Source of the DNA: Xestospongia bergquistia
Lineage: Eukaryota > Porifera > Demospongiae > Haplosclerida > Petrosiidae
Direction: 5' to 3'
Length of the DNA: 64,000 nt
Assembly (NCBI GenBank): GCA_963965975.1
Contig: OZ014420.1
Coordinates: forward strand, 3,126,001-3,190,000
Shown here in pieces: positions 1,040 through 63,891 of this stretch. The notes beneath the pieces are model-generated. The model was given only the letters and a program-made list of their open reading frames with translations, did no database searches and had not been told where the DNA came from. Each line of letters begins with the position of its first letter. Position 1 is the first letter of the stretch. The position numbers and the translations under genes were made by a program.

Positions 1040-1266
1040 TTGTTTAAAGAATAGTATTTTGTTAGTATCTAATTTATTTAAGTCTTTATGTAAATGTTAC
1101 ACCTGATATCTAGAAGTAAATAATTGTTTTACAAGTAATAGCACTTACTACAAACCAATTTGCTTCACATGTATTAAATATGTATTATTAAAAACAGAAT
1201 CATGAGAGAAAATTTATAGTTATAAATAAAATAGTATAATGTAGACATTATTTTTCATATTAACAA

Positions 1267-3295: not shown

Positions 3296-6200
3296 GAGAT
3301 AGAACAATCATCTCCAATAGATCAGTAAACAGACCTATTCTACTCTATCCTAAAAGAAGGTATCATTTAAATTGTTGAGTTTATAACTCTCAATTAGTTG
3401 TTGATCATCTCCAGTAGAAAACAGTCCTACTATAAAATGAAAAATAGTTATTACAACAGAGCAGCAATAATAATGATTATCATTATAAATTGACAAGAGT
3501 CTGTTGTATATTAAAATTGCTTGTAATTATAGTGTACAACGGTCCAAGTCAGTTATTAGTGATAAAGAGAAGAGTTTAGATTTCATTGACATCAGCTACA
3601 AAACAAAACCATCAAACCCTCCAGCCAATACAAACCATGAATGAAAACTTACCAAAAGCCCCGATGCCAATCAATAGGACACGAAAAATTGTAAATGCCA
3701 TACTGAATAAAAAACTTTTAAATGTCAGTAAAAAATACTGAACTAAAGTTCTAGATACCAGTGAAAAAGATTGTAGTAAAATTTTAGATGCCAATAAAAA
3801 ATACTGTAGTCAATTTTTAGATGCCAGTAAAAAACTGAAGTAAATTTTTAGATGCTAGTAATAAAGTACTTCTGAAGTAAATTTTTAGATGCTAGTAATA
3901 AAGTACTTCTAGTAATAAAGTAATTCTGATCCTTCTGGATAATAATGAAAGCTTAAAACAAATTCTTTGGCTAAAGATTAACTGAAAAGGATAAGATGAA
4001 TTGGTACATTTACAGCTCTTTATCCACATGGAAAACAATAGTAATACTTGACGTTTGTCATCTGGTACATCAGATCATCACTACCAGTGATCATTAAACC
4101 TGTCATCATTCCCAGCACTCAACTAGAACATGTTGCAACTAGCGAATAAAAATGGGCAATTAGAATTAATGATATATAAAAAATCAATCTTACATAGAGT
4201 AGTTATTAGACAACTTCGCTACATCATCTCCAGTCTAGTCATATATCATAGGACTATAATAGATCTAGATCATCACATGTTGATGTAGAATAAATTACTA
4301 TTATAATAGAAGAGAATAAACATTAAAAACATTTGATTTAATAAGTCTTTCTATTAACTTACTAGAAGTAGGACAATCATCTCCAATAGATCAGTAAACA
4401 GACCTATTCTACTCTATCCTAAAAAAAGGTATCATTTAAATTGTTGAGTTTATATCTCTCAATTAGTCGATCATCTCCAGTAGAAAACAGTCCTACTACA
4501 AAATGAAAAATAGTTATTATAACAGACCAATAAAATTATTACAAATTGACAAGAGTCTGTTGTATATTAAAATTACTTAGTTATTAGGGATAAAGAGAAG
4601 AGTTTATATTTCACAGACATCTGCTATAAAACCTAACCTTCAAACCCTCCAGGGTAATACAAAAACATGAATGAAAACTTAACAAAAGCCCTGATGCCAA
4701 TGAACAGGACACGAAAAATTCTAGATGCCATACTGAAGTAAATTTTTAGATGCGAGCAAAAAATACTGTAGTAAATTTTTAGATGCCAGTAAAAAACTGA
4801 AGCCAGTTCTTAGATGCCAGTAATAAAGTACTTCTAGTAATAAAGTAATTCTGATCCTTCTGGATAATAACGAAAGCTTAAAACAAATTCTTTGGCTAAA
4901 GATTAACTCAATACGATAAGATGAATTGGTACATTTACAGCTCTTTATCCACATGGAAAACAATAGTAATACTTGACGTTTGTCATCTGGTACATCAGAT
5001 CATCACTACCAGTGATCATTAAACCTGTCCATCCTATTAAATAGTTCATTCGGTAGAAAATTTTACTATTTAACAAGTCAACTTACAGTCAATGTAGAAT
5101 AGATCATAAATCTATATAGAGTGACAAAAGGGTCAGTAGTATCGTACTTATAACATAGTATAAGTATTATGATACAGCTGTCATCATACCCAGCACTCAA
5201 CTAGAACATCAACTAGAGACTAAAAATGGCCAGTTAGAATTAATGATATATAAAAAATCAATCATACATGGAGTAGTTATTAGACAACTTCGCTACATCA
5301 TCTCCAGTCTAGTCATATACACTATATCATAGGACTATAATAGATCTAGATCATCACATGTTGATGTAGAATAAATTACTATTATAATAGAAGAGAACAA
5401 ACAGTAAAAACATTTGATTTAATAAGTCCTTCTATTAACTTACTAGAAGTAGGACAATCATCTCCAATAGATCAGTAAACAGACCTATTCTACTCTATCC
5501 TAAAAGAAGGTATCATTTAAATTGTTGAGTTTATAACTCTCAATTAGTTGATCATCATCTCCAGTAGAAAACAGTCCTACTATAAAATGAAGAATAGTTA
5601 TTATAACAGAGCAATAATAATTATTATAAATTGACAAGAGTCTGTTGTATATTAAATTACTTAATAATTTTAGTGTACAACAGTCCATGTCACTTATTAG
5701 GGATAAAGAGAAGAGCCTACACTTCACAAACACCAGCTAATAAAATGTAACCATCAAATCTTCCAGGCCAGCACAAACCTAACCTCCAAACCTATCCAGA
5801 TACCAGTAATACAATGACAATGAGTTGTCAGTGTTAGAGATGTCAGCATTAATTTACAAAAAGATTATAAAGGGAGTTAAATAAGTCAGGCTTATACAGC
5901 ACACATAAGGGGTAAATGTGCAACACACTCAATGGTTAACAATTACCAAACAGAAGGGGTTAAATTATTCAGGATTATACAGCACACATAAAGGGATAAA
6001 TATCCAACACAACGGTAACAAATATGAAATGGAGGGTTAAATAATTCAAGATTATACGACACGCACAAGGGGTTAATACACAACACACTCAATGGTCAGC
6101 AATTACGAACCAGAAGGGGTTAAATAATTCAAGATTACACAACACAAAGGGAGTTAATATGGCAGACATAAGTTATAGAACATTATGACACAGTAACAGA

Positions 6201-7430
6201 CACACACAAAGGGATTAAAATAAATATGGAAGGGTCTGACATCAGGTTTAATATCAAGAGAAAGGGTCACCGTTATACATCAATAACACCTAGAAGGTTA
6301 TACAGGGATAGTTTATATATAGATGCACAAAAGACAAAGATGAATGAGATGTGAGGTACCACGAGACAAGGAGGATACAATATTAGAAAGTATTGACAAA
6401 ATAACATACAAACAGTTCTTCCAAGTCCAAATCCACCTATTAATACCCCAGACTCATCAACCACCTACAATCACATTATGATGTCCATATACACAACCCA
6501 GAAACTGATCCCTGACCATACTCAACACACAAAGACTGTCAACCTCAAGAACCAAGATAAAGAGCCACAATCAGCAATGTTGAATATTTTCCAGGCCCAT
6601 AAACAATTATTGATGACCACACAGTGTTAGTAGTAGATAAACCAATTATAAAGGAGACCAAGACAGTTTATAATCATACTATAGTGTAACTATTAATATA
6701 CAACCATCATCTCCATCACCATCTCAATCATCATCATCACCACCATCTCCATCACCATCTCAATCATCATCATCATCACCATCTCCATCAATCATCATCA
6801 TCACCACCATCTCCATCACCATCTCAATCATCATCATCATCACCATCTCCATCATCATCTCAATCATAGTCTCCATCATCGTCTCGTTCATCATCTCCAC
6901 CATCTCCAGCAGTTGAAGTACACTCAACTTGGACATCACTACAGAATGAAAAGTTTAACAAAAGGTATACAAAGATCAATCTTATATAGAGTGATTATTG
7001 AAGAACATCACTGCATAACCTCCAGTCTAGTCATCAAAACTCACATAGAGTGGTTATTAGGGAACGTCACTGCATCATTTCTAGTCCAGTCATCAAAACT
7101 CACATAGAGTAATTATTAGAGAACATCACTGCATATCCTCCAGTCCAGTCTGGTCATCAAAAGTCACATAGAGTTAATGATACATCAAAATTACAGTCTA
7201 AGTAGACATTGTACTATTTAATAATTCAACTTACAGTAGGTATATTAACAAATGTTATCAGATCATCTCTTATTAGTTTAAGAATTTGTTTTGTTTTAAC
7301 ATTATCATTACACTACAGAACAAGTAGTTAGTAAATTAGTAATTTAATAATAGATATGACTTACATATATAGTATATCATAGGACTATACTAGATCTAGA
7401 TCACATGTTGATGTGGAATAAATTACTATG
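3296..7430. repeat. Satellite higher-order unit 1 (A-B-C)
   Basis: Subunits start near 3303, 4370 and 5447. The first is chimeric: its opening marker is the B/C form (GATCAGTAAACAG), while the following sequence is type A. It abuts the broken HMGCR exon through about seven bases of filler (GAGATAG). Type C holds a ~95 bp repeat (5870-6240, GGGGTTAAATAATTC core), a CATCATCTCCATCACC minisatellite (6703-6910), and three ~65 bp repeats containing CACATAGAGT (6985-7180). Confidence 0.9.
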
Positions 7431-10400
7431 AACACTAATAGATCAGCAAACAGACCTATTCAATCCTAAAAGAAGGTATCATTTAAATTGTTGAGTTAAT
7501 AACTCTCAATTAGTTGATCATCATCTCCAGTAGAAAACAGTCCTACTATAAAATGAAAAATAGCTATTACAACCGAACAGCAATAATAATGATTATCATT
7601 ATAAATTGACAAGAGTCTGTTGTATATTAAAATTGCTTGTAATTATAGTGTACAACGGTCCAAATCAGTTATTAGTGATAAAGAGAAGAGTTTAGATTTC
7701 ATTGACATCAGCTACAAAACAAAACCATCAAACCCTCCAGCCAATACAAACCATGAATGAAAACTTACCAAAAGCCCCGATGCTAATCAATAGGACACGA
7801 AAAATTGTAAATGCCATACTGAATAAAAAACTTTTAAATGTCAGTAAAAAATACTGAACTAAAGTTCTAGATACCAGTGAAAAAGATTGTAGTAAAATTT
7901 TAGATGCCAGTAAAAAATACTGTAGTCAATTTTTAGATGCCAGTAAAAAACTGAAGTAAATTTTTAGATGCTAGTAATAAAGTACTTCTAGTAATAAAGT
8001 AATTCTGATCCTTCTGGATAATAACGAAAGCTTAAAACAAATTCTTTGGCTAAAGATTAACTGAAAAGGATAAGATGAATTGGTACATTTACAGCTCTTT
8101 ATCCACATGGAAAACAATAGTAATACTTGACGTTTGTCATCTGGTACATCAGATCATCACTACCAGTGATCATTAAACCTGTCCATCCTATTAAATAGTT
8201 CATTCAGTAGAAAATTGTACTATTTGATAAGTCAACTTACAACAGCAGTCATCAGTTAATGTAAATTAGATCATAAATCTACTAGAGTGACAAAAGGGTC
8301 AGTAGTATCGTACTTATAACATAGTATAAGTATTATGATACAGCTGTCATCATACCCAGCAATCAACTAGAACATCAACTAGAGAATAAAAATGGCAAGT
8401 TAGAATTAATGAGATATAAAAAAATCAATCTTACATAGAGTAGTTATTAGACAACTTCGCTACATCATCTCCAGTCTAGTCATATATCATAGGACTATAA
8501 TAGATCTAGATCATCACATGTTGATGTAGAATAAATTACTATTATAATAGAAGAGAACAAACAGTAAAAACATTTGATTTAATAAGTCTTTCTATTAACT
8601 TACTAGAAGTAGGACAATCATCTCCAATAGATCAGTAAACAGACCTATTCTACTCTATCCTAAAAAAAGGTATCATTTAAATTGTTGAGTTTATATCTCT
8701 CAATTAGTCGATCATCTCCAGTAGAAAACAGTCCTACTACAAAATGAAAAATAGTTATTATAACAGACCAATAAAATTATTACAAATTGAAAAGAGTCTG
8801 TTGTATATTAAAATTACTTAGTTATTAGGGATAAAGAGAAGAGTTTATATTTCACAGACATCTGCTATAAAACCTAACCTTCAAACCCTCCAGGGTAATA
8901 CAAACCACGAATGAAAACTTAACAAAAGCCCTGATGCCAATGAACAGGACACGAAAAATTCTAGATGCCATACTGAAGTAAATTTTTAGATGCGAGCAAA
9001 AAATACTGTAGTAAATTTTTAGATGCCAGTAAAAAACTAAAGCCAGTTCTTAGATGCCAGTAATAAAGTACTTCTAGTAATAAAGTAATTCTGATCCTTC
9101 TGGATAATAACGAAAGCTTAAAACAAATTCTTTGGCTAAAGATTAACTCAATACGATAAGATGAATTGGTACATTTACAGCTCTTTATCCACATGGAAAA
9201 CAATAGTAATACTTGACGTTTGTCATCTGGTACATCAGATCATCACTACCAGTGATCATTAAACCTGTCCATCCTATTAAATAGTTCATTCGGTAGAAAA
9301 TTCTACTATTTAACAAGTCAACTTACAGTCAATGTAGAATAGATCATAAATCTATATAGAGTGACAAAAGGGTCAGTAGTATCGTACTTATAACATAGTA
9401 TAAGTATTATGATACAGCTGTCATCATACCCAGCACTCAACTAGAACATCAACTAGAGACTAAAAATGGTTAGAATTAATGATATATAAAAAATCAATCA
9501 TACATGCAGTAGTTATTAGACAACTTCGCTACATCATCTCCAGTCTAGTCATATACACTATATCATAGGACTATAATAGATCTAGATCATCACATGTTGA
9601 TGTAGAATAAATTACTATTATAATAGAAGAGAACAAACAGTAAAAACATTTGATTTAATAAGTCCTTCTATTAACTTACTAGAAGTAGGACAATCATCTC
9701 CAATAGATCAGTAAACAGACCTATTCTACTCTATCCTAAAAGAAGGTATCATTTAAATTGTTGAGTTTATAACTCTCAATTAGTTGATCATCATCTCCAG
9801 TAGAAAACAGGCCTACTATAAAATGAAGAATAGTTATTATAACAGAGCAATAATAATTATTATAAATTGACAAGAGTCTGTTGTATATTAAATTACTTAA
9901 TAATTTTAGTGTACAACAGTCCATGTCACTTATTAGGGATAAAGAGAAGAGCCTACACTTCACAAACACCAGCTAATAAAATGTAACCATCAAATCTTCC
10001 AGGCCAGCACAAACCTAACCTCCAAACCTATCCAGATACCAGTAATACAATGACAATGAGTTGTCAGTGTTAGAGATGTCAGCATTAATTTACAAAAAGA
10101 TTATAAAGGGAGTTAAATAAGTCAGGCTTATACAGCACACATAAGGGGTAAATGTGCAACACACTCAATGGTTAACAATTACCAAACAGAAGGGGTTAAA
10201 TTATTCAGGATTATACAGCACACATAAAGGGATAAATATCCAACACAACGGTAACAAATATGAAATGGAGGGTTAAATAATTCAAGATTATACGACACGC
10301 ACAAGGGGTTAATACACAACACACTCAATGGTCAGCAATTACGAACCAGAAGGGGTTAAATAATTCAAGATTACACAACACAAAGGGAGTTAATATGGCA

Positions 10401-11762
10401 GACATAAGTTATAGAACATTATGACACAGTAACAGACACACACAAAGGGATTAAAATAAATATGGAAGGGTCTGACATCAGGTTTAATATCAAGAGAAAG
10501 GGTCACCGTTATACATCAATAACACCTAGAAGGTTATACAGGGATAGTTTATATATAGATGCACAAAAGACAAAGATGAATGAGATGTGAGGTACCACGA
10601 GACAAGGAGGATACAATATTAGAAAGTATTGACAAAATAACATACAAACAGTTCTTCCAAGTCCAAATCCACCTATTAATACCCCAGACTCATCAACCAC
10701 CTACAATCACATTATGATGTCCATATACACAACCCAGAAACTGATCCCTGACCATACTCAACACACAAAGACTGTCAACCTCAAGAACCAAGATAAAGAG
10801 CCACAATCAGCAATGTTGAATATTTTCCAGGCCCATAAACAATTATTGATGACCACACAGTGTTAGTAGTAGATAAACCAATTATAAAGGAGACCAAGAC
10901 AGTTTATAATCATACTATAGTGTAACTATTAATATACAACCATCATCTCCATCACCATCTCAATCATCATCATCACCACCATCTCCATCACCATCTCAAT
11001 CATCATCATCATCACCATCTCCATCATCATCTCAATCATAGTCTCCATCATCGTCTCGTTCATCATCTCCACCATCTCCATCACCATCTCAATCATCATC
11101 ATCATCACCATCTCCATCATCATCTCAATCATAGTCTCCATCATCGTCTCGTTCATCATCTCCACCATCTCCAGCAGTTGAAGTACACTCAACTTGGACA
11201 TCACTACAGAATGAAAAGTTTAACAAAAGGTATACAAAGATCAATCTTATATAGAGTGATTATTGAAGAACATCACTGCATAACCTCCAGTCTAGTCATC
11301 AAAACTCACATAGAGTGGTTATTAGGGAACGTCACTGCATCATTTCTAGTCCAGTCATCAAAACTCACATAGAGTAATTATTAGAGAACATCATTGCATA
11401 TCCTCCAGTCCAGTCTGGTCATCAAAAGTCACATAGAGTTAATGATACATCAAAATTACAGTCTAAGTAGACATTGTACTATTTAATAATTCAACTTACA
11501 GTAGGTATATTAACAAATGTTATCAGATCATCTCTTATTAGTTTAAGAATTTGTTTTGTTTTAACATTATCATTACACTACAGAACAAGTAGTTAGTAAA
11601 TTAGTAATTTAATAATAGATATGACTTACATATATAGTATATCATAGGACTATACTAGATCTAGATCATATGTTGATGTGGAATAAATTACTATGATAAT
11701 AGAAAAGAATAAATAATAAAAACAATTATTTAATAAGTGTTTCTATTAACTTACTAGAAGAA
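7431..11762. repeat. Satellite higher-order unit 2 (A-B-C)
   Basis: Subunits start near 7431, 8607 and 9682. The A marker is the GATCAGCAAACAGACC form. Compared with the junctions of units 3-6, about 70 bp upstream of the marker (an AT-rich stretch ending in TTACTAGAAGAAA) is missing at 7430. The CATCATCTCCATCACC minisatellite is at 10936-11173 with two blocks of its ~80-100 bp super-repeat. Confidence 0.9.
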
Positions 11763-14700
11763 AAACACTAATAGATCAGCAAACAGACCTATTCAATCCT
11801 AAAAGAAGGTATCATTTAAATTGTTGAGTTTATAACTCTCAATTAGTTGATCATCATCTCCAGTAGAAAACAGTCCTACTATAAAATGAAAAATAGTTAT
11901 TACAACAGAACAGCAATAATAATGATTATCATTATAAATTGACAAGAGTCTGTTGTATATTAAAATTGCTTGTAATTATAGTGTACAACGGTCCAAGTCA
12001 GTTATTAGTGATAAAGAGAAGAGTTTAGATTTCATTGACATCAGCTACAAAACAAAACCATCAAACCCTCCAGCCAATACAAACCATGAATGAAAACTTA
12101 CCAAAAGCCCCGATGCTAATCAATAGGACACGAAAAATTGTAAATGCCATACTGAATAAAAAACTTTTAAATGTCAGTAAAAAATACTGAACTAAAGTTC
12201 TAGATACCAGTGAAAAAGATTGTAGTAAAATTTTAGATGCCAGTAAAAAATACTGTAGTCAATTTTTAGATGCCAGTAAAAAACTGAAGTAAATTTTTAG
12301 ATGCTAGTAATAAAGTACTTCTAGTAATAAAGTAATTCTGATCCTTCTGGATAATAACGAAAGCTTAAAACAAATTCTTTGGCTAAAGATTAACTCAATA
12401 CGATAAGATGAATTGGTACATTTACAGCTCTTTATCCACATGGAAAACAATAGTAATACTTGACGTTTGTCATCTGGTACATCAGATCATCACTACCAGT
12501 GATCATTAAACCTGTCCATCCTATTAAATAGTTCATTCAGTAGAAAATTGTACTATTTGATAAGTCAACTTACAACAGCAGTCATCAGTTAATGTAAATT
12601 AGATCATAAATCTACTAAAGTGACAAAAGGGTCAGTAGTATCGTACTTATAACATAGTATAAGTATTATGATACAGCTGTCATCATACCCAGCAATCAAC
12701 TAGAACATCAACTAGAGAATAAAAATGGCAAGTTAGAATTAATGAGATATAAAAAAATCAATCTTACATAGAGTAGTTATTAGACAACTTCGCTACATCA
12801 TCTCCAGTCTAGTCATATATCATAGGACTATAATAGATCTAGGTCATCACATGTTGATGTAGAATAAATTACTATTATAATAGAAGAGAACAAACAGTAA
12901 AAACATTTGATTTAATAAGTCTTTTTATTAACTTACTAGAAGTAGGACAATCATCTCCAATAGATCAGTAAACAGACCTATTCTACTTTATCCTAAAAGA
13001 AGGTATCATTTAAATTGTTGAGTTTATATCTCTCAATTAGTCGATCATCTCCAGTAGAAAACAGTCCTACTACAAAATGAAAAATAGTTATTATAACAGA
13101 CCAATAAAATTATTACAAATTGAAAAGAGTCTGTTGTATATTAAAATTACTTAGTTATTAGGGATAAAGAGAAGAGTTTATATTTCACAGACATCTGCTA
13201 TAAAACCTAACCTTCAAACCCTCCAGGGTAATACAAACCACGAATGAAAACTTAACAAAAGCCCTGATGCCAATGAACAGGACACGAAAAATTCTAGATG
13301 CCATACTGAAGTAAATTTTTAGATGCGAGCAAAAAATACTGTAGTAAATTTTTAGATGCCAGTAAAAAACTGAAGCCAGTTCTTAGATGCCAGTAATAAA
13401 GTACTTCTAGTAATAAAGTAATTCTGATCCTTCTGGATAATAACGAAAGCTTAAAACAAATTCTTTGGCTAAAGATTAACTCAATACGATAAGATGAATT
13501 GGTACATTTACAGCTCTTTATCCACATGGAAAACAATAGTAATACTTGACGTTTGTCATCTGGTACATCAGATCATCACTACCAGTGATCATTAAACCTG
13601 TCCATCCTATTAAATAGTTCATTCGGTAGAAAATTCTACTATTTAACAAGTCAACTTACAGTCAATGTAGAATAGATCATAAATCTATATAGAATGACAA
13701 AAGGGTCAGTAGTATCGTACTTATAACATAGTATAAGTATTATGATACAGCTGTCATCATACCCAGCACTCAACTAGAACATCAACTAGAGACTAAAAAT
13801 GGCCAGTTAGAATTAATGATATAAAAAAAATCAATCATACATGCAGTAGTTATTAGACAACTTCGCTACATCATCTCCAGTCTAGTCATATACACTATAT
13901 CATAGGACTATAATAGATCTAGACCATCACATGTTGATGTAGAATAAATTACTATTATAATAGAAGAGAACAAACAGTAAAAACATTTGATTTAATAAGT
14001 CCTTCTATTAACTTACTAGAAGTAGGACAATCATCTCCAATAGATCAGTAAACAGACCTATTCTACTCTATCCTAAAAGAAGGTATCATTTAAATTGTTG
14101 AGTTTATAACTCTCAATTAGTTGATCATCATCTCCAGTAGAAAACAGTCCTACTATAAAATGAAGAATAGTTATTATAACAGAGCAATAATAATTATTAT
14201 AAATTGACAAGAGTCTGTTGTATATTAAATTACTTAATAATTTTAGTGTACAACAGTCCATGTCACTTATTAGGGATAAAGAGAAGAGCCTACACTTCAC
14301 AAACACCAGCTAATAAAATGTAACCATCAAATCTTCCAGGCCAGCACAAACCTAACCTCCAAACCTATCCAGATACCAGTAATACAATGACAATGAGTTG
14401 TCAGTGTTAGAGATGTCAGCATTAATTTACAAAAAGATTATAAAGGGAGTTAAATAAGTCAGGCTTATACAGCACACATAAGGGGTAAATGTGCAACACA
14501 CTCAATGGTTAACAATTACCAAACAGAAGGGGTTAAATTATTCAGGATTATACAGCACACATAAAGGGATAAATATCCAACACAACGGTAACAAATACGA
14601 AATGGAGGGTTAAATAATTCAAGATTATACGACACGCACAAGGGGTTAATACACAACACACTCAATGGTCAGCAATTACGAACCAGAAGGGGTTAAATAA

Positions 14701-16088: not shown

Positions 16089-19000
16089 AACACTAATAGA
16101 TCAGCAAACAGACCTATTCAATCCTAAAAGAAGGTATCATTTAAATTGTTGAGTTTATAACTCTCAATTAGTTGATCATCATCTCCAGTAGAAAACAGTC
16201 CTACTATAAAATGAAAAATAGCTATTACAACAGAGCAGCAATAATAATGATTATCATTATAAATTGACAAGAGTCCGTTGTATATTAAAATTGCTTGTAA
16301 TTATAGTGTACAACGGTCCAAGTCAGTTATTAGTGATAAAGAGAAGAGTTTAGATTTCATTGACATCAGCTACAAAACAAAACCATCAAACCCTCCAGCC
16401 AATACAAACCATAAATGAAAACTTACCAAAATCCCCGATGCCAATCAATAGGACATGAAAAATTGTAAATGCCATACTGAATAAAAAACTTTTAAATGTC
16501 AGTAAAAAATACTGAACTAAAGTTCTAGATACCAGTGAAAAAGATTGTAGTAAAATTTTAGATGCCAATAAAAAATACTGTAGTCAATTTTTAGATGCCA
16601 GTAAAAAACTGAAGTAAATTTTTAGATGCTAGTAATAAAGTACTTCTGAAGTAAATTTTTAGATGCTAGTAATAAAGTACTTCTAGTAATAAAGTAATTC
16701 TGATCCTTCTGGATAATAACGAAAGCTTAAAACAAATTCTTTGGCTAAAGATTAACTCAATACGATAAGATGAATTGGTACATTTACAGCTCTTTATCCA
16801 CATGGAAAACAATAGTAATACTTGACGTTTGTCATCTGGTACATCAGATCATCACTACCAGTGATCATTAAACCTGTCCATCCTATTAAATAGTTCATTC
16901 AGTAGAAAATTGTACTATTTGATAAGTCAACTTACAATAGCAGTCATCAGTTAATGTAGATTAGATCATAAATCTACTAGAGTGACAAAAGGGTCAGTAG
17001 TATCGTACTTATAACATAGTATAAGTATTATGATACAGCTGTCATCATACCCAGCAATCAACTAGAACATCAACTAGAGAATAAAAATGGCCAGTTAGAA
17101 TTAATGAGATATAAAAAAATCAATCTTACATAGAGTAGTTATTAGACAACTTCGCTACATCATCTCCAGTCTAGTCATATATCATAGGACTATAATAGAT
17201 CTAGATCATCACATGTTGATGTAGAATAAATTACTATTATAATAGAAGAGAATAAACAGTAAAAACATTTGATTTAATAAGTCTTTCTATTAACTTACTA
17301 GAAGTAGGACAATCATCTCCAATAGATCAGTAAACAGACCTATTCTACTCTATCCTAAAAGAAGGTATCATTTAAATTGTTGAGTTTATATCTCTCAATT
17401 AGTCGATCATCTCCAATAGAAAACAGTCCTACTACAAAATGAAAAATAGTTATTATAACAGACCAATAAAATTATTACAAATTGACAAGAGTCTGTTGTA
17501 TATTAAAATTACTTAGTTATTAGGGATAAAGAGAAGAGTTTATATTTCACAGACATCTGCTATAAAACCTAACCTTCAAACCCTCCAGGGCAATACAAAC
17601 CATGAATCAAAACTTAACAAAAGCCCTGATGCCAATGAACAGGACACGAAAAATTCTAGATGCCATACTGAAGTAAATTTTTAGATGCGAGTAAAAAATT
17701 CTGTAGTAAAATTTTTACATGCCAGTAAAAAACTGAAGCCAGTTCTTAGATGCCAGTAATAAAGTACTTCTAGTAATAAAGTAATTCTGATCCTTCTGGA
17801 TAATAACGAAAGCTTTAAACAAATTCTTTGGCTAAAGATTAACTCAATACGATAAGATGAATTGGTACATTTACAGCTCTTTATCCACATGGAAAACAAT
17901 AGTAATACTTGACGTTTGTCATCTGGTACATCAGATCATCACTACCAGTGATCATTAAACCTGTCCATCCTATTAAATAGTTCATTCAGTAGAAAATTGC
18001 ACTATTTGATAAGTCAACTTACAACAGCAGTCATCAGTTAATGTAAATTAGATCATAAATCTACTAAAGTGACAAAAGGGTCAGTAGTATCGTACTTATA
18101 ACATAGTATAAGTGTTATGATACAGCTGTCATCATACCCAGCAATCAACTAGAACATCAACTAGAGAATAAAAATGGCCAGTTAGAATTAATGAGATATA
18201 AAAAAATCAATCTTACATAGAGTAGTTATTAGACAACTTCGCTACATCATCTCCAGTCTAGTCATATATCATAGGACTATAATAGATCTAGGTCATCACA
18301 TGTTGATGTAGAATAAATTACTATTATAATAGAAGAGAACAAACAGTAAAAACATTTGATTTAATAAGTCTTTCTATTAACTTACTAGAAGTAGGACAAT
18401 CATCTCCAATAGATCAGTAAACAGACCTATTCTACTTTATCCTAAAAAAAGGTATCATTTAAATTGTTGAGTTTATATCTCTCAATTAGTTGATCATCTC
18501 CAGTAGAAAACAATCCTACTACAAAATGAAAAATAGTTATTATAACAGACCAATAAAATTATTACAAATTGACAAGAGTCTGTTGTATATTAAAATTACT
18601 TAGTTATTAGGGATAAAGAGAAGAGTTTATATTTCACAGACATCTGCTATAAAACCTAACCTTCAAACCCTCCAGGGTAATACAAACCATGAATGAAAAC
18701 AAAAGCCCTGATGCCAATGAACAGGACACGAAAAATTCTAGATGCCATACTGAAGTAAATTTTTAGATGCGAGTAAAAAATACTGTAGTAAAATTTTTAC
18801 ATGCCAGTAAAAAACTGAAGCCAGTTCTTAGATGCCAGTAATAAAGTACTTCTAGTAATAAAGTAATTCTGATCCTTCTGGATAATAACGAAAGCTTTAA
18901 ACAAATTCTTTGGCTAAAGATTAACTCAATACGATAAGATGAATTGGTACATTTACAGCTCTTTATCCACATGGAAAACAATAGTAATACTTGACGTTTG

Positions 19001-21552
19001 TCATCTGGTACATCAGATCATCACTACCAGTGATCATTAAACCTGTCCATCCTATTAAATAGTTCATTCAGTAGAAAATTGTACTATTTGATAAGTCAAC
19101 TTACAATAGCAGTCATCAGTTAATGTAAATTAGATCATAAATCTACTAAAGTGACAAAAGGGTCAGTAGTATCGTACTTATAACATAGTATAAGTATTAT
19201 GATACAGCTGTCATCATACCCAGCAATCAACTAGAACATCAACTAGAGAATAAAAATGGCCAGTTAGAATTAATGAGATATAAAAAAATCAATCTTACAT
19301 AGAGTAGTTATTAGACAACTTCGCTACATCATCTCCAGTCTAGTCATATACACTATATCATAGGACTATAATAGATCTAGGTCATCACATGTTGATGTAG
19401 AATAAATTACTATTATAATAGAAGAGAACAAACAGTAAAAACATTTGATTTAATAAGTCTTTCTATTAACTTACTAGAAGTAGGACAATCATCTCCAATA
19501 GATCAGTAAACAGACCTATTCTACTCTATCCTAAAAGAAGGTATCATTTAAATTGTTGAGTTTATAACTCTCAATTAGTTGATCATCATCTCCAGTAGAA
19601 AACAGGCCTACTATAAAATGAAGAATAGTTATTATAACAGAGCAATAATAATTATTATAAATTGACAAGAGTCTGTTGTATATTAAATTACTTAATAATT
19701 TTAGTGTACAACAGTCCATGTCACTTATTTGGGATAAAGAGAAGAGCCTACACTTCACAAACACCAGCTAATAAAATGTAACCATCAAATCTTCCAGGCC
19801 AGCACAAACCTAACCTCCAAACCTATCCAGATACCAGTAATACAATGACAATGAGTTGTCAGTGTTAGAGATGTCAGCATTAATTTACAAAAAGATTATA
19901 AAGGGAGTTAAATAAGTCAGGCTTATACAGCACACATAAGGGGTAAATGTGCAACACACTCAATGGTTAACAATTACCAAACAGAAGGGGTTAAATTATT
20001 CAGGATTATACAGCACACATAAAGGGATAAATATCCAACACAACGGTAACAAATATGAAATGGAGGGTTAAATAATTCAAGATTATACGACACGCACAAG
20101 GGGTTAATACACAACACACTCAATGGTCAGCAATTACGAACCAGAAGGGGTTAAATAATTCAAGATTACACAACACAAAGGGAGTTAATATGGCAGACAT
20201 AAGTTATAGAACATTATGACACAGTAACAGACACACACAAAGGGATTAAAATAAATATGGAAGGGTCTGACATCAGGTTTAATATCAAGAGAAAGGGTCA
20301 CCGTTATACATCAATAACACCTAGAAGGTTATACAGGGATAGTTTATATAATAGATGCACAAAAGATGAATGAGATGTGAGGTACCACGAGACAAGGAGG
20401 ATACAATATTAGAAAGTATTGACAAAATAACATACAAACAGTTCTTCCAAGTCCAAATCCACCTATTAATACCCCAGACTCATCAACCACCTATAATCAC
20501 ATCATGATGTCCATATACACAACCCAGAAACTGATCCCTGACCATACTCAACACACAAAGACTGTCAACCTCAAGAACCAAGATAAAGAGCCACAACCAG
20601 CAATGTTGAATATTTTCCAGGCCCATAAACAATTATTGATGACCACACAGTGTTAGTAGTAGATAAACCAATTATAAAGGAGACCAAGACAGTTTATAAT
20701 CATACTATAGTGTAACTATTAATATACAACCATCATCTCCATCACCATCTCAATCATCATCATCACCACCATCTCCATCACCATCTCAATCATCATCATC
20801 ATCACCATCTCCATCATCATCTCAATCATAGTCTCCATCATCGTCTCGTTCATCATCTCCACCATCTCCATCACCATCTCAATCATCATCATCATCACCA
20901 TCTCCATCATCATCTCAATCATAGTCTCCATCATCGTCTCGTTCATCATCTCCACCATCTCCAGCAGTTGAAGTACACTCAACTTGGACATCACTACAGA
21001 ATGAAAAGTTTAACAAAAGGTATACAAAGATCAATCTTATATAGAGTGATTATTAGAGAACATCACTGCATAACCTCCAGTCTAGTCATCAAAACTCACA
21101 TAGAGTGGTTATTAGGGAACGTCACTGCATCATTTCTAGTCCAGTCATCAAAAGTCACATAGAGTAATTATTAGAGAACATCACTGCATATCCTCCAGTC
21201 CAGTCTGGTCATCAAAAGTCACATAGAGTTAATGATACATCAAAATTACAGTCTAAGTAGACATTGTACTATTTAATAATTCAACTTACAGTAGGTATAT
21301 TAACAAATGTTATCAGATCATCTCTTATTAGTTTAAGAATTTGTTTTGTTTTAACATTATCATTACACTACAGAACAAGTAGTTAGTAAATTAGTAATTT
21401 AATAATAGATATGACTTACATATATAGTATATCATAGGACTATACTAGATCTAGATCATATGTTGATGTGGAATAAATTACTATGATAATAGAAGAGAAT
21501 AAATAATGAAAACAATTATTTAATAAGTGTTTCTATTAACTTACTAGAAGAA
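16089..21552. repeat. Satellite higher-order unit 4 (A-B-B-C)
   Basis: Subunits start near 16089, 17306, 18388 and 19480. The type B subunit is present twice in a row (1082 bp period). Both copies share private changes, such as AAATTTTTACATGCCAG near 17706 and 18789. This is the expected product of a local unequal exchange or slippage event. The minisatellite is at 20727-20963. Confidence 0.9.
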
Positions 21553-24500
21553 AAACACTAATAGATCAGCAAACAGACCTATTCAATCCTAAAAGAAGGT
21601 ATCATTTAAATTGTTGAGTTTATAACTCTCAATTAGTTGATCATCATCTCCAGTAGAAAACAGTCCTACTATAAAATGAAAAATAGCTATTACAACAGAG
21701 CAGCAATAATAATGATTATCATTATAAATTGACAAGAGTCCGTTGTATATTAAAATTGCTTGTAATTATAGTGTACAACGGTCCAAGTCAGTTATTAGTG
21801 ATAAAGAGAAGAGTTTAGATTTCATTGACATCAGCTACAAAACAAAACCATCAAACCCTCCAGCCAATACAAACCATAAATGAAAACTTACCAAAATCCC
21901 CGATGCCAATCAATAGGACATGAAAAATTGTAAATGCCATACTGAATAAAAAACTTTTAAATGTCAGTAAAAAATACTGAACTAAAGTTCTAGATACCAG
22001 TGAAAAAGATTGTAGTAAAATTTTAGATGCCAGTAAAAAACTGAAGTAAATTTTTAGATGCTAGTAATAAAGTACTTCTGAAGTAAATTTTTAGATGCTA
22101 GTAATAAAGTACTTCTAGTAATAAAGTAATTCTGATCCTTCTGGATAATAACGAAAGCTTAAAACAAATTCTTTGGCTAAAGATTAACTCAATACGATAA
22201 GATGAATTGGTACATTTACAGCTCTTTATCCACATGGAAAACAATAGTAATACTTGACGTTTGTCATCTGGTACATCAGATCATCACTACCAGTGATCAT
22301 TAAACCTGTCATCATTCCCAGCACTCAACTAGAACATGTTGCAACTAGCGAATAAAAATGTGCAATTAGAATTAATGATATATAAAAAATCAATCTTACA
22401 TAGAGTAGTTATTAGACAACTTCGCTACATCATCTCCAGTCTAGTCATATATAGTGTATCATACAACTATACTAGATCTAGATCATCACATGTTGATGTA
22501 GAATAAATTACTATTATAATAGAAGAGAACAAAAAGTAAAAACATTTGATTTGATAAGTGTTTCAACTTACTAGAAGTAGGACAATCATCTCCAATAGAT
22601 CAGTAAATAGACCTATTCTACTCTATCCTAAAAGAAGGTATCATTTAAATTGTTGAGTTTATAACTCTCAATTAGTTGATCATCATCTCCAGTAGAAAAC
22701 AGGCCTACTATAAAATGAAAAATACTTATTATAACAGAGCAATAATAATTATTATAAATTGACAAGAGTCTGTTGTATATTAAATTACTTAATAATTTTA
22801 GTGTACAACAGTCCATGTCACTTATTTGGGATAAAGAGAAGAGCCTACACTTCACAAACACCAGCTAATAAAATGTAACCATCAAATCTTCCAGGCCAGC
22901 ACAAACCTAACCTCCAAACCTATCCAGATACCAGTAATACAATGACAATGAGTTGTCAGTGTTAGAGATGTCAGCATTAATTTACAAAAAGATTATAAAG
23001 GGAGTTAAATAAGTCAGGCTTATACAGCACACATAAGGGGTAAATGTGCAACACACTCAATGGTTAACAATTACCAAACAGAAGGGGTTAAATTATTCAG
23101 GATTATACAGCACACATAAAGGGATAAATATCCAACACAACGGTAACAAATATGAAATGGAGGGTTAAATAATTCAAGATTATACGACACGCACAAGGGG
23201 TTAATACACAACACACTCAATGGTCAGCAATTACGAACCAGAAGGGGTTAAATAATTCAAGATTACACAACACAAAGGGAGTTAATATGGCAGACATAAG
23301 TTATAGAACATTATGACACAGTAACAGACACACACAAAGGGATTAAAATAAATATGGAAGGGTCTGACATCAGGTGTAATATCAAGAGAAAGGGTCACCG
23401 TTATACATCAATAACACCTAGAAGGTTATACAGGGATAGTTTATATATAGATGCATAAAAGATAAAGATGAATGAGATGTGAGGTACCACGAGACAAGGA
23501 GGATACAATATTAGAAAGTATTGACAAAATAACATACAAACAGTTCTTCCAAGTCCAAATCCACCTATTAATACCCCAGACTCATCAACCACCTATAATC
23601 ACATCATGATGTCCATATACACAACCCAGAAACTGATCCCTGACCATACTCAACACACAAAGACTGTCAACCTCAAGAACCAAGATAAAGAGCCACAACC
23701 AGCAATGTTGAATATTTTCCAGGCCCATAAACAATTATTGATGACCACACAGTGTTAGTAGTAGATAAACCAATTATAAAGGAGACCAAGACAGTTTATA
23801 ATCATACTATAGTGTAACTATTAATATACAACCATCATCTCCATCACCATCTCAATCATCATCATCACCACCATCTCCATCACCATCTCAATCATCATCA
23901 TCATCACCATCTCCATCATCATCTCAATCATAGTCTCCATCATCGTCTCGTTCATCATCTCCACCATCTCCAGCAGTTGAAGTACACTCAACTTGGACAT
24001 CACTACAGAATGAAAAGTTTAACAAAAGGTATACAAAGATCAATCTTATATAGAGTGATTATTGAAGAACATCACTGCATAACCTCCAGTCCAGTCATCA
24101 AAACTCACGTAGAGTGGTTATTAGGGAACGTCACTGCATCATTTCTAGTCCAGTCATCAAAACTCACATAGAGTAATTATTAGAGAACATTACTGCATAT
24201 CCTCGAGTCCAGTCTGGTCATCAAAAGTCACATGGAGTTAATGATACATCAAAATTACAGTCTAAGTAGACATTGTACTATTTAATAATTCAACTTACAG
24301 TAGGTATATTAACAAATGTTATCAGATCATCTCTTATTAGTTTAAGAATTTGTTTTGTTTTAACATTATCATTACACTACAGAACAAGTAGTTAGTAAAT
24401 TAGTAATTTAATAATAGATATGACTTACATATATAGTATATCATAGGACTATACTAGATCTAGATCATATGTTGATGTGGAATAAATTACTATGATAATA

Positions 24501-24561
24501 GAAGAGAATAAATAATAAAAACAATTATTTAATAAGTGTTTCTATTAACTTACTAGAAGAA
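21553..24561. repeat. Satellite higher-order unit 5 (A-C, B missing)
   Basis: Subunits start near 21553 and 22575. The B subunit is absent, giving the shortest unit (about 3.0 kb). It is the reciprocal kind of product to the B-B duplication in unit 4. The minisatellite (23831-23973) has only one super-repeat block. Confidence 0.9.
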
Positions 24562-27500
24562 AAACACTAATAGATCAGCAAACAGACCTATTCAATCCTA
24601 AAAGAAGGTATCATTTAAATTGTTGAGTTTATAACTCTCAATTAGTTGATCATCAATCTCCAGTAGAAAACAGTCCTACTATAAAATGAAAAATAGCTAT
24701 TACAACAGAGCAGCAATAATAATGATTATCATTATAAATTGACAAGAGTCCGTTGTATATTAAAATTGCTTGTAATTATAGTGTACAACGGTCCAAGTCA
24801 GTTATTAGTGATAAAGAGAAGAGTTTAGATTTCATAGACATCAGCTACAAAACAAAACCATCAAACCCTCCAGCCAATACAAACCATGAATGAAAACTTA
24901 CCAAAAGCCCCGATGCCAATCAATAGGACACGAAAAATTGTAAATGCCATACTGAATAAAAAACTTTTAAATGTCAGTAAAAAATACTGAACTAAAGTTC
25001 TAGATGCCAGTGAAAAAGATTGTAGTAAAATTTTAGATGCCAGTAAAAAATACTGTAGTCAATTTTTAGATGCCAGCAAAAAACTGAAATAAATTTTTAG
25101 ATGCTAGTAATAAAGTACTTCTAGTAATAAAGTAATTCTGATCCTTCTGGATAATAACGAAAGCTTAAAACAAATTCTTTGGCTAAAGATTAACTGAAAA
25201 GGATAAGATGAATTGGTACATTTACAGCTCTTTATCCACATGGAAAACAATAGTAATACTTGACGTTTGTCATCTGGTACATCAGATCATCACTACCAGT
25301 GATCATTAAACCTGTCATCATTCCCAGCACTCAACTAGAACATGTTGCAACTAGCGAATAAAAATGGGCAATTAGAATTAATGATATATAAAAAATCAAT
25401 CTTACATAGAGTAGTTATTAGACAACTTCGCTACATCATCTCCAGTCTAGTCATATATAGTGTATCATACAACTATACTAGATCTAGATCATCACATGTT
25501 GATGTAGAATAAATTACTATTATAATAGAAGAGAACAAAAAGTAAAAACATTTGATTTGATAAGTGTTTCAACCTACTAGAAGTAGGACAATCATCTCCA
25601 ATAGATCAGTAAATAGACCAATTCTACTCTATCCTAAAAGAAGGTATCATTTAAATTGTTGAGTTTATAACTCTCAATTAGTTGATCATCATCTCCAGTA
25701 GAAAACAGTCCTACTATAAAATGAAAAATACTTATTATAACAGAGCAATAATAATTATTATAAATTGACAAGAGTCTGTTGTATATTAAATTACTTGTTG
25801 TATATTAAAATTACTTAGCTGTTAGGGATAAAGAGGAAAGTTTAGACATCTGTTATAAAACCTAACATTCAAAACCCTATAGGACAATACAAACCATGAA
25901 TGAAAAATTACCAAAAGCCCCGATGCCAATGAACAGGACACAAAAAATTCTAGATGCCAGTAAAAAATACTGTAGTAAATATTTAAATGCAAGTAAAAAG
26001 AAAAGTGAAGTAAATTTTTAGATGCTAGTAATAAAGTAATTCTGATCTTTCTGGATAATAATGAAAGCTTAACAACAAATTCTTTGGCTAAAGAGATTAA
26101 CTCAATAGGATAAGATGAATTGGTAGCTCTTTATCCACATGGAAAACAACAATAATACTTGACGTTTGTCATCTGGTACATCAGATCATCACTACCAGTG
26201 ATCATTAAACCTGTCCATCCTATTAAATAGTTCATTCAGTAGAAAATTGTACTATTTGATAAGTCAACTTACAATAGCAGTCATCAGTTAATGTAGATTA
26301 GATCATAAATCTACTAGAGTGACAAAAGGGTCAGTAGTATCGTACTTATAACATAGTATAAGTATTATGATACAGCTGTCATCATACCCAGCAATCAACT
26401 AGAACATCAACTAGAGAATAAAAATGGCCAGTTAGAATTAATGAGATATAAAAAAATCAATCTTACATAGAGTAGTTATTAGACAACTTCGCTACATCAT
26501 CTCCAGTCTAGTCATATATCATAGGACTATACTAGATCTAGATCATCACATGTTGATGTAGAATAAATTACTATTATAATAGAAGAGAATAAACAGTAAA
26601 AACATTTGATTTAATAAGTCTTTCTATTAACTTACTAGAAGTAGGACAATCATCTCCAATAGATCAGTAAACAGACCTATTCTACTTTATCCTAAAAGAA
26701 GGTATCATTTAAATTGTTGAGTATATATCTCTCAATTAGTCGATCATCTCCAATAGAAAACAGTCCTACTACAAAATGAAAAATAGTTATTATAATAGAT
26801 CAATAAAATTATTACAAATTGAAAAGAGTCTGTTGTATATTAAAATTACTTAGTTATTAGGGATAAAGAGAAGAGTTTATATTTCACAGACATCTGCTAT
26901 AAAACCTAACCTTCAAACCCTCCAGGGCAATACAAACCATGAATCAAAACTTAACAAAAGCCCTGATGTCAATGAACAGGACATGAAAAATTCTAGATGC
27001 CATACTGAAGTAAATTTTTAGATGCCAGTAAAAAATACTGTAGTAAATTTTTAGGTGCCAGTAAAAAACTGAAGCCAGTTCTTAGATGCCAGTAATAAAG
27101 TACTTCTAGTAATAAAGTAATACTGATCCTTCTGGATAATAACGAAAGCTTTAAACAAATTCTTTGGCTAAAGATTAACTCAATACGATAAGATGAATTG
27201 GTACATTTACAGCTCTTTATCCACATGGAAAACAATAGTAATACTTGACGTTTGTCATCTGGTACATCAGATCATCACTACCAGTGATCATTAAACCTGT
27301 CCATCCTATTAAATAGTTCATTCGGTAGAAAATTCTACTATTTAACAAGTCAACTTACAGTCAATGTAGAATAGATCATAAATCTATATAGAGTGACAAA
27401 AGGGTCAGTAGTATCGTACTTATAACATAGTATAAGTATTATGATACAGCTGTCATCATACCCAGCACTCAACTAGAACATCAACTAGAGACTAAAAATG

Positions 27501-29075
27501 GCCAGTTAGAATTAATGATATATAAAAAATCAATCATACATGGAGTACTTATTAGACAACTTCGCTACATCATCTCCAGTCTAGTCATATACACTATATC
27601 ATAGGACTATAATAGATCTAGATCATCACATGTTGATGTAGAATAAATTACTATTATAATAGAAGAGAACAAACAGTAAAAACATTTGATTTAATAAGTC
27701 CTTCTATTAACTTACTAGAAGTAGGACAATCATCTCCAATAGATCAGTAAACAGACCTATTCTACTCTATCCTAAAAGAAGGTATCATTTAAATTGTTGA
27801 GTTTATAACTCTCAATTAGTTGATCATCATCTCCAGTAGAAAACAGGCCTACTATAAAATGAAGAATAGTTATTATAACAGAGCAATAATAATTATTATA
27901 AATTGACAAGAGTCTGTTGTATATTAAATTACTTAATAATTTTAGTGTACAACAGTCCATGTCACTTATTTGGGATAAAGAGAAGAGCCTACACTTCACA
28001 AACACCAGCTAATAAAATGTAACCATCAAATCTTCCAGGCCAGCACAAACCTAACCTCCAAACCTATCCAGATACCAGTAATACAATGACAATGAGTTGT
28101 CAGTGTTAGAGATGTCAGCATTAATTTACAAAAAGATTATAAAGGGAGTTAAATAAGTCAGGCTTATACAGCACACATAAGGGGTAAATGTGCAACACAC
28201 TCAATGGTTAACAATTACCAAACAGAAGGGGTTAAATTATTCAGGATTATACAGCACACATAAAGGGATAAATATCCAACACAACGGTAACAAATATGAA
28301 ATGGAGGGTTAAATAATTCAAGATTATACGACACGCACAAGGGGTTAATACACAACACACTCAATGGTCAGCAATTACGAACCAGAAGGGGTTAAATAAT
28401 TCAAGATTACACAACACAAAGGGAGTTAATATGGCAGACATAAGTTATAGAACATTATGACACAGTAACAGACACACACAAAGGGATTAAAATAAATATG
28501 GAAGGGTCTGACATCAGGTTTAATATCAAGAGAAAGGGTCACCGTTATACATCAATAACACCTAGAAGGTTATACAGGGATAGTTTATATATAGATGCAT
28601 AAAAGACAAAGATGAATGAGATGTGAGGTACCACGAGACAAGGAGGATACAATATTAGAAAGTATTGACAAAATAACATACAAACAGTTCTTCCAAGTCC
28701 AAATCCACCTATTAATACCCCAGACTCATCAACCACCTATAATCACATTATGATGTCCATATACACAACCCAGAAACTGATCCCTGACCATACTCAACAC
28801 ACAAAGACTGTCAACCTCAAGAACCAAGATAAAGAGCCACAACCAGCAATGTTGAATATTTTCCACGCCCATAAACAATTATTGATGACCACACAGTGTT
28901 AGTAGTAGATAAACCAATTATAAAGGAGACCAAGACAGTTTATAATCATACTATAGTGTAACTATTAATATACAACCATTATCTCCATCACCATCTCAAT
29001 CATCATCTCCACCATCTCTAGCAGTTGAAGTACACTCAACTTGATCACTACGGAATGAAAAGTTTAAGAAAAGGT
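24562..29075. repeat. Satellite higher-order unit 6 (A-hybrid-B-C), end truncated
   Basis: Subunits start near 24562, 25583, 26642 and 27720. The second is a hybrid: C-like at its start, then a short internal duplication (GTTGTATATTAAA twice near 25790-25810), then A/B-like sequence. It is also the most divergent copy. The terminal C subunit loses most of its CATCATCTCC minisatellite (28976-29030) and ends shortly after, near 29075. Raised divergence at the array edge is typical of satellites that homogenise from the centre. Confidence 0.85.
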
Positions 29076-29079
29076 ATAA

Positions 29080-35001: not shown

Positions 35002-35051
35002 CTAGAACAAAAATACAAATTGTAAGGATTTTATACAATTTGGTACCAATT

Positions 35052-35987: not shown

Positions 35988-36003
35988 ATGAACCCTTTTA
36001 TAA

Positions 36004-40164: not shown

Positions 40165-40391
40165 TTGTTTAAAGAATAGTATTTTGTTAGTATCTAATTT
40201 ATTTAAGTCTTTATGTAAATGTTACACCTGATATCTAGAAGTAAATAATTGTTTTACAAGTAATAGCACTTACTACAAACCAATTTGCTTCACATGTATT
40301 AAATATGTATTATTAAAAACAGAATCATGAGAGAAAATTTATAGTTATAAATAAAATAGTATAATGTAGACATTATTTTTCATATTAACAA

Positions 40392-63818: not shown

Positions 63819-63891
63819 ATGGCTGACTTCTCAAAGCGAAAATTGTTTTTTATTAAACCCTCGAAGGTGTGCAATTTGAAGTATGTGAAAG
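63819..63891 (+). CDS. Possible first exon of a gene running off the window
   Basis: ATG at 63819 (purine at -3, G at +4) begins MADFSKRKLFFIKPSKVCNL and stays open to a GGTATGCC donor after 63891. It is basic and has no signal peptide. It is too short to assign, and is proposed only from the start context and donor. Confidence 0.25.

Follow-up and report, generated by a model that had tools for sequence, protein, structure and literature searches.

Whether a tandem array in a sponge chromosome is confined to one place or belongs to a genome-wide family is the question raised by the satellite at positions 3296-29075 of the window, by which we mean the whole 64-kb stretch of chromosome C10 analysed here (labels C1-C15 denote the 15 large contigs). 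Gene content, short introns as judged visually and a resemblance in karyotype point to a sponge. A preliminary description had read it as a higher-order satellite and a candidate centromeric, pericentromeric or euchromatic repeat.

Anatomy and turnover of the array

Boundaries obtained by BLAST of one B subunit divided the 26-kb array into 19 subunits without gaps (six each of types A, B and C, plus one H), arranged in six units of the order ABC, ABC, ABC, ABBC, AC and AHBC, within a window that contained no N. The three subunit types and six larger units previously claimed were recovered as stated, and the claimed ~4.3 kb period agreed with the commonest self-match offset of ~4335 bp, the units following one another head to tail at a constant spacing and units 4-6 differing in subunit number. 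All subunits below are on the plus strand, and rest on BLAST boundaries and identity comparison unless stated.

3296..4379, A1, short A, first part B-like
4380..5460, B1
5461..7436, C1 subunit, composite of 83-bp minisatellite, CAT tract and 59-bp repeats
7437..8620, A2, long A
8621..9696, B2
9697..11769, C2 subunit
11770..12953, A3, long A
12954..14033, B3
14034..16094, C3 subunit
16095..17315, A4, long A
17316..18402, B4a (BLAST boundaries; 99.0% to B4b)
18403..19491, B4b, tandem gain
19492..21559, C4 subunit
21560..22588, A5, short A, abutting C5 (this unit lacks B)
22589..24568, C5 subunit
24569..25594, A6, short A
25595..26652, H6, A/B mosaic with private states (identity comparison)
26653..27732, B6
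27733..29075, C6 subunit, truncated at the right edge

The subunit length of ~1.07 kb given earlier held for A (1026-1221 bp) and B (1076-1089 bp) but not for C (1976-2073 bp, the final C 1343 bp), a subunit of ~2 kb in which the middle of a B-like frame is replaced by ~1.4 kb of 83-bp minisatellite, CAT-rich tract and 59-bp repeats. The A subunits fall into two length classes, with ~150 bp present in A2-A4 and missing from A1, A5 and A6. The hybrid reported in unit 6 does mix A and B, but through several switches and with private states rather than as a simple two-part fusion.

Subunits clustered by type in the pairwise identity matrix (same-type identity 96.9-99.6%), with values in ungapped columns of 97.0-99.2% for A, 96.9-99.4% for B and 97.7-99.6% for C. 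B1 matched the A subunits at 76-83% over the main BLAST stretches, at 91-93% over the final 0.28 kb of the short As, and at 92-96% in ungapped columns. Subunits within a unit are therefore diverged while same-position subunits of neighbouring units are nearly identical, which supports higher-order organisation; unequal exchange is supported as well. B4a and B4b are closer to each other (99.0%) than either is to the other Bs (96.9-97.9%), so unit 4 records a tandem gain, and the AC unit is a loss of B. The gain and the loss proposed in the preliminary description both stand; their reciprocity is not demonstrable, because the products of one exchange sit on different chromatids and the two events need not be reciprocal. 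Its ageing edge applies to the right end, where C6 has 97.7-97.9% identity to the C1-C4 subunits and 99.1% to the C5 subunit, but not to the left end, which is sharp (B1-B2 99.4%, C1-C2 subunits 99.6%). There the array coincides with a breakpoint inside an exon of HMGCR (HMG-CoA reductase) and is not at a natural array end.

The array contained no open reading frame of at least 120 aa from a start codon, and within 3296-12000 the longest frames between stops (136 and 148 aa) both cross the CAT tract, by which a protein-coding tandem array was rejected. An RNA gene was rejected on zero Rfam and zero tRNA matches in the window. Judged by its sequence, the array is most likely non-coding, without an encoded product.

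Gene fragments in the flanks and related arrays elsewhere

Unrecognized in the preliminary description, a mosaic duplicon has the array as its core and carries pieces of the acid phosphatase, HMGCR and INTS2 genes in its flanks. On chromosome C10 the relevant features are the following.

1..3295, array left flank: truncated HMGCR 3' part (~1300-3295, minus strand) beside the acid phosphatase 3' end (plus strand)
29076..35988, right flank: minisatellite, 30324-31952 segment and C-terminal INTS2 fragment (~32.1-35.0 kb, minus strand)
35051-35988, terminal-inverted-repeat element closing the right flank
37220..40160, plus strand, acid phosphatase gene (limits approximate, judged visually from exon-like frames)
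40380..45345, minus strand, HMGCR gene, likely donor of the truncated HMGCR copies

Positions 1-3295 are a 99.1% copy of 39138-42420, and no second place in the genome gave a whole-query match to 39138-43100. The acid phosphatase gene probably supplied the outer portion of the left flank of the duplicon, the HMGCR locus probably works as a gene, and chromosome C10 is the likely donor site for both. Its candidacy as founder of all copies is weakened by the INTS2 part, which derives from chromosome C14, and by daughter junctions located further inside HMGCR than the C10 copy reaches.

Relatives of the unit were found on many chromosomes, contrary to the single-locus outcome, unclustered by subunit type, that had been named as refuting. 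The B subunit and C unit had 244 and 235 genome matches, respectively, and a 31-mer allowed up to 3 mismatches had at least 644, against 0 for its reversed control. The right-flank segment 30324-31952 occurs in at least 40 copies, including that on chromosome C10, on 13 of the 15 chromosomes (47 rows before 7 that belonged to copies already counted were merged). Among the matches listed, INTS2 fragments lie on 12 chromosomes, and end-to-end INTS2 matches (9 of 54 rows) fall solely at chromosome C14:5.129-5.135 Mb, a distal position that marks the parent at 5.13 Mb; 43 of the other 45 rows listed are in family territory, with two outside its margins (chromosome C6:4.34 and chromosome C1:16.31 Mb). 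Truncated HMGCR copies break near window positions 41494, 42137, 42259 and 42501 at many loci, and daughter copies have deletions in common. The HMGCR/array junction is one and the same at the loci on chromosome C2 and at C12a and C12d, and the donor site there has a short run of bases in common. The family is thus a mosaic of gene fragments from other loci, copied to non-homologous chromosomes as in segmental duplication.

The two-layer (body)n-C plan was present in all seven arrays examined, on five chromosomes. Besides the 26 kb on C10, arrays measured ~7-30 kb, two extending beyond the stretch compared, and are short relative to centromeric satellites. C-cores were 98.5% identical within loci versus 95.6% between, and same-chromosome copies were more alike across the sampled arrays. 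A tree of 42 body segments that passed the length cut, from stretches sampled on six chromosomes, needed 5 chromosome-label changes, and one of 31 C-cores from five chromosomes needed 4, the minimum in each case. The chromosome C12 grouping is weakly supported, and that of chromosome C9 comes from 3 rows. Past duplication of whole blocks may explain part of this grouping: the two chromosome C12 right flanks pair as well, and six of the chromosome C9 blocks are 97-98% like the chromosome C2 block.

Chromosomal confinement and its explanation

On each of 13 of the 15 chromosomes the copies gather in a single interior territory (for example, 11.9-13.2 Mb on chromosome C2, 3.6-5.3 Mb on chromosome C9 and 3.7-4.2 Mb on chromosome C12), with none seen on chromosomes C11 and C15 among the matches listed. 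Over chromosomes with at least two copies, the mean copy span was 0.117 of chromosome length versus 0.512 at random (minimum of 10,000 draws, 0.268). The mean distance from the chromosome middle was 0.084 versus 0.25 at random, a value reached in 0 of 100,000 draws; relative positions are approximate, since the telomere repeat, searched as (TTAGGG)5, was not found anywhere in the assembly. The territories with 5% margins cover 15% of the genome and held 45 of 45 exact 31-mer matches, 37 of 40 C-cores and 52 of 52 HMGCR/ACP rows tested, whereas a dispersed element in the same kind of search had 21 of 32 matches there. All three outlying C-cores are on chromosome C14, where right-flank and array copies jointly span 0.32 of the length, and two weak acid phosphatase-part rows outside the margins (chromosome C13:4.33 Mb, 69-70% identity) were not among the tested 52. 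RVT_1 matches were closer to territories than random, with a slight enrichment within 5% of a territory (0.182 vs 0.150), and kinases were farther.

One interior territory on 13 of 15 chromosomes is consistent with a centromeric or pericentromeric home. The satellite may also be euchromatic, because HMGCR and a CERT-like gene lie ~11 kb and ~17 kb, respectively, from the array's right edge. On balance, we favour the explanation that the higher-order satellite is the core of a mosaic duplicon that has spread to a single interior and, judging from position and repeat context, probably pericentromeric territory on at least 13 of the 15 chromosomes. The duplicon carries acid phosphatase and HMGCR fragments on one side of the array and INTS2 fragments on the other. 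Each array would turn over through unequal exchange and gene conversion, mainly within its chromosome, which would give each chromosome its own variant. Blocks would travel between chromosomes by duplicative copying of the template-switch or break-repair type, and would survive in regions of low recombination where disruption does no harm. The C10 array, adjoining the likely donor HMGCR locus, appears to have had its original left edge removed by a later deletion. Most likely the satellite would be a passive tenant of pericentromeric chromatin, to whose formation it might contribute.

A less probable account is passive spread in interiors rich in transposable elements and low in recombination, unrelated to centromeres, with clusters arising by local re-duplication after one arrival per chromosome. 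The general interior enrichment of RVT_1 domains and the many same-chromosome copies that are near-identical blocks suit this account, but the territories are narrow (mean 0.12 of length) and the dispersed element was not confined to them (21 of 32 inside). It is rather unlikely that the family is, or forms part of, functional centromere DNA, with CENP-A chromatin on chromosome-specific arrays as on primate alpha satellite. The single interior territory on 13 of 15 chromosomes, the higher-order structure and the chromosome-specific variants would be expected of such DNA; however, the arrays are small, adjoin genes on C10 and were not seen on chromosomes C11 and C15, and several small arrays across up to 1-2 Mb suit a pericentromere better than a core. 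The CENP-B box is a mammalian motif, so its zero matches in the window are weak evidence against this reading.

Assembly artefact, with a wrong unit number or a second haplotype falsely joined at 3295/3296, is very improbable. The 99.1% match between 1-3295 and 39138-42420 might indicate a haplotype copy, but the leftward duplication continues as 88-99% pieces with indels, partly too divergent for alleles, neither the window nor a 200-kb stretch checked with it contains N, and the same plan recurs at other loci. We give equally little credence to a transcribed locus (a long non-coding RNA or small-RNA cluster) in which the right-flank segment would act as promoter and transcription would run leftwards through the array. 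The strand asymmetry of the array and a minus-strand GTAAGA resembling a splice donor near 31.2 kb in C10 point that way, but the donor is GTCAGA in four of five other copies and GTGAGA in one, short indels around it would break the reading frame, and the window has no Rfam match; the idea that the right flank holds a conserved promoter or first exon was rejected because neither donor nor frame is conserved. A very large transposable element carrying the array and captured gene fragments is the least credible, since, despite many copies of fixed left flank-array-right flank polarity and retroelement, Harbinger-like and MITE-like sequences in or beside some of them (by eye), outer ends differ among the loci compared, so that fixed ends were rejected, the chromosome C4 array lacks adjoining left-flank homology in the stretch compared, right-hand homology between chromosomes C2 and C9 reaches the end of the compared C2 stretch, and array edges are out of common phase.

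Comparison with known satellites and duplicons

For human pericentromeres a two-step seeding model has been proposed, and the surroundings of primate centromeres are crowded with satellites and duplications, which the gathering of this family in one inner region of most chromosomes resembles. Primate interspersed or pericentromeric segmental duplications with core duplicons are described as mosaic blocks copied from one chromosome to another, with a recurrent core such as LCR16a (PMC7419210); the counterpart here is the 30324-31952 segment with its at least 40 copies. Unlike LCR16a, which encodes a gene family, this core looks non-coding and accompanies a satellite array. Like primate alpha satellite as outlined in a review (PMC5615363), the sponge arrays hold diverged subunits in larger homogenised units (here 97-99%), and they share chromosome-specific variants and an interior distribution of one territory per chromosome. 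They differ in having minisatellite-built subunits of ~1.08 and ~2 kb rather than of 170 bp, in forming several arrays per territory of tens of kb or less, in being surrounded by copied gene fragments, and in having a centromere role that is putative. Higher-order organisation, introduced in the preliminary description as best known from primates, is indeed known there but is not restricted to them, dimeric and complex higher-order repeats being reported in beetles and several mammals (review PMC5615363). Compared by description in that review, those satellites also have higher-order units with extraneous elements, whereas the array here moves with host-gene fragments.

Among sponges, segmental duplication is reported in the chromosome assembly of Ephydatia muelleri, where, unlike here, the duplications are tandem and segmental gene clusters (PMC7385117). 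In the portions of that paper drawn on here, the one mention of a centromere concerns the probable site where a scaffold was split, and the word satellite is absent. No description of a centromeric or pericentromeric satellite in a sponge was found among the matches listed from the literature searched. Tentatively, and with more doubt than confidence, the family could be the first candidate centromere-region system in sponges, with chromosome-specific higher-order satellites in a gene-fragment duplicon marking nearly every centromere zone. If so, alpha-satellite-like organisation and pericentromeric duplication would have arisen independently in an early-branching animal lineage. The locus marks a testable candidate for a centromere region: were the territories centromeric, a single FISH probe taken from the array or the 30324-31952 segment would label these zones on most chromosomes, and primates could be compared with a non-bilaterian in how their chromosome-specific higher-order repeats evolve. 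At this locus, a satellite and copied fragments of housekeeping genes travel together, and, because the donors are still identifiable, the order of events can be reconstructed.

Two-layered organisation of the array and its edges

The satellite array runs without gaps from 3296 to about 29075 and is a higher-order repeat in which subunits have been gained and lost. Mapping one B subunit onto the window recovered the 19-subunit order of the preliminary description, namely ABC, ABC, ABC, ABBC, AC and A-H-B-C (A, B and C being subunit types and H the hybrid of unit 6), and its ~4.3 kb period reappears as the most frequent self-offset of the array, about 4335 bp. The accompanying subunit size of ~1.07 kb fits A (1026-1221 bp) and B (1076-1089 bp) but not C, which is about twice as long (1976-2073 bp; the final copy is shortened to 1343 bp). 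Pairwise comparison agreed with the typing, same-type subunits being 96.9-99.6% identical over ungapped columns. The C subunit has a B-like frame with its middle swapped for a minisatellite and CAT-rich sequence, A comes in two lengths, long in A2-A4 and short in A1, A5 and A6, and the hybrid is a mosaic of A and B with private states. The nearest relative of B4a is B4b (99.0% identity), the pair being a recent tandem gain. No coding or RNA product was seen for the array.

An ageing edge, also proposed earlier, holds for the right side alone: the right edge looks aged, its final, cut subunit C6 having diverged from C1-C4 (97.7-97.9% identity; 99.1% to C5), whereas subunits near the left edge have hardly diverged (B1-B2 99.4%, C1-C2 99.6%). 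The left edge is a breakpoint within an exon of HMG-CoA reductase (HMGCR). The left flank (1-3295) is 99.12% identical to 39138-42420, both copies carry the HMG-CoA_red Pfam match, and the top solved-structure match is HMG-CoA reductase (1dq8). Since this duplication extends leftwards past the window edge as far as the counterpart of 35047 (pieces 88-99% identical, with indels), the array and a segment bearing Integrator subunit 2 (INTS2) are flanked by a pair of direct copies, each about 7.4 kb long. The HMGCR copy on the left is truncated, without the N-terminal membrane part, and differs from the right-hand one by replacements such as Arg-to-Cys right before the conserved DAMGMNM stretch.

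Copies across the genome and their confinement

The window corresponds to C10:3126001-3190000 (from here on, C1-C15 denote chromosomes) in an assembly of 146.5 Mb, made up of 15 large contigs, 5.4-28.2 Mb in length, and a further 6 that are small. Contrary to the refuting outcome named in the preliminary description, the repeat is multi-locus, with at least 244 genome matches to the B subunit and at least 235 to the C unit. The right-flank segment 30324-31952 gave 47 rows, merged to at least 40 copies (the window copy included) on 13 of the 15 chromosomes by dropping 7 secondary pieces; these counts are lower bounds, the best 40 of 106 candidates having been scored, and no copy fell on C11 or C15 among the matches listed.

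These copies are confined to chromosome interiors. On the nine chromosomes bearing at least two right-flank copies, their mean span was 0.117 of chromosome length against 0.512 at random (minimum in 10,000 draws 0.268), and median copy position (one per chromosome, n = 13) averaged 0.084 of chromosome length away from the centre (expectation 0.25), with 0 of 100,000 draws that low. Territories, defined as copy spans plus 5% margins, make up 15.2% of the 15 chromosomes and hold 45/45 exact 31-mer matches among those listed (644 matches with up to 3 mismatches, 100 listed; reversed control 0), 37/40 full-length C-core rows and 52/52 HMGCR/acid phosphatase rows of at least 500 bits, 38 of the 92 rows being weaker. 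C14 holds the three remaining C-core rows, some 0.36 Mb away from the closest right-flank copy, and two of the weaker rows, matching the acid phosphatase part outside territories at C13:4.33 Mb (69-70% identity), may belong to a separate related gene. The left-flank and array tests are tied to the right-flank map, since all of these pieces move together.

Useful contrasts are the INTS2 parent and a dispersed element. The right flank holds a C-terminal INTS2 fragment (PF14750); end-to-end profile coverage was found in 9 of 54 rows, all at C14:5.129-5.135 Mb and nowhere else among the matches listed, and 43 of the other 45 lie within territories (exceptions at C6:4.34 and C1:16.31 Mb). The dispersed element, taken from one flank, had 21 of 32 matches inside territories and 11 outside. 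RVT_1 rows lie closer to territories than random (0.193 vs 0.249; 143/150 rows, 13 chromosomes), with slight enrichment within 5% of them (0.182 vs 0.150), whereas kinases are more distant (0.276 vs 0.213; 60 places, 13 chromosomes).

Gene fragments, junctions and neighbouring genes

The array sits in a multi-copy mosaic of gene fragments. The left flank is composed of acid phosphatase (nearest solved structure prostatic acid phosphatase, E 4e-4) and HMGCR, and a query covering the 3' end of acid phosphatase together with most of HMGCR (39138-43100) was matched whole only in the window, among the matches listed. Daughter copies share HMGCR breakpoints near 41494, 42137, 42259 and 42501. Loci on C2 and C12 (C12a, C12d) share an HMGCR (about 43764)/array junction, joined at a short run of identical bases; the C10 junction differs, lying closer to the HMGCR 3' side, perhaps through later deletion at the array edge. 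In alignment, 26 gap differences set the C10 right flank apart from all of C2, C4, C12a and C12c, a count made without C8. The right block of C2 also includes a guanylate-kinase-domain fragment.

A transposon was judged very unlikely as the source: the outer ends of the duplicon (array plus flanks) vary between the fetched loci and C2-C9 homology reaches the end of the C2 stretch fetched, which together resemble segmental duplication. Other features of the window are as follows.

35051-35988, MITE-like element, terminal inverted repeats of about 61 bp, 85% identical
56687-57775, HCN-like ion channel ORF, Ion_trans_N and Ion_trans
61209-62750, minus strand, two ORFs with an immunoglobulin-type domain look (by eye)

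At four of the fetched loci, right-flank homology to the window stops inside the MITE-like element, near 35945-35950; at one more it stops at 36002. The INTS2 fragment region contains a 175 bp direct duplication (33181-33355 and 33785-33959; 92%). A dispersed segment, 63305-64000, recurs in whole or in part (91-96%): three C12 loci carry it to the left of their acid phosphatase fragment, and one C9 locus has it in its right flank. At 40380-50500, HMGCR (minus) stands head to head with a CERT-like PH+START gene (plus), their frames separated by about 0.25 kb; in human, HMGCR and CERT1 are neighbours too, so this pair may be very old microsynteny.

Chromosome-specific variants and proposed mechanism

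All seven arrays examined (C2, C4, C8, C10 and three places on C12) follow the two-layer plan, subunits of about 0.9-1.2 kb being broken up by C subunits, and those sampled carry chromosome-specific variants. C-core identity was 98.5% within loci and 95.6% between. The subunit-body tree (42 segments passing the length cut, six chromosomes) required 5 chromosome-label changes, the minimum, versus 25.9 with labels shuffled; the C-core tree (31 C-cores, five chromosomes) required 4, again the minimum, versus 19.0. C9 was placed by three rows from a single 5-kb stretch, a second yielding none. Subunits of the three C12 loci intermingle, within a weakly supported group (90/28 and 67/74), and the two right flanks from C12 also pair, so chromosome grouping may partly be block-duplication history.

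We propose that arrays would be homogenised by unequal exchange and conversion within chromosomes, that blocks may be copied between chromosomes via replication-based repair, and that they could survive in a low-recombination, probably pericentromeric, zone. As outlined in a review (PMC5615363), higher-order repeats have subunits 70-90% alike inside a unit and more than 95% alike between units, form chromosome-specific subfamilies in human, and have also been noted in beetles and in further mammals. In their mosaic make-up the blocks resemble the interspersed duplications of primates, which are built around a core duplicon (PMC7419210). A literature search, with most subscription papers outside its scope, found no description of a sponge centromeric satellite.

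At C12:4.173-4.195 Mb, four successive C-unit matches have identical scores and a spacing of exactly 4192 bp; this array is likewise higher-order, very homogeneous and of similar period. At C8:4.409-4.439 Mb, ORFs resemble by eye a Harbinger-type transposase that has inserted into a satellite array.
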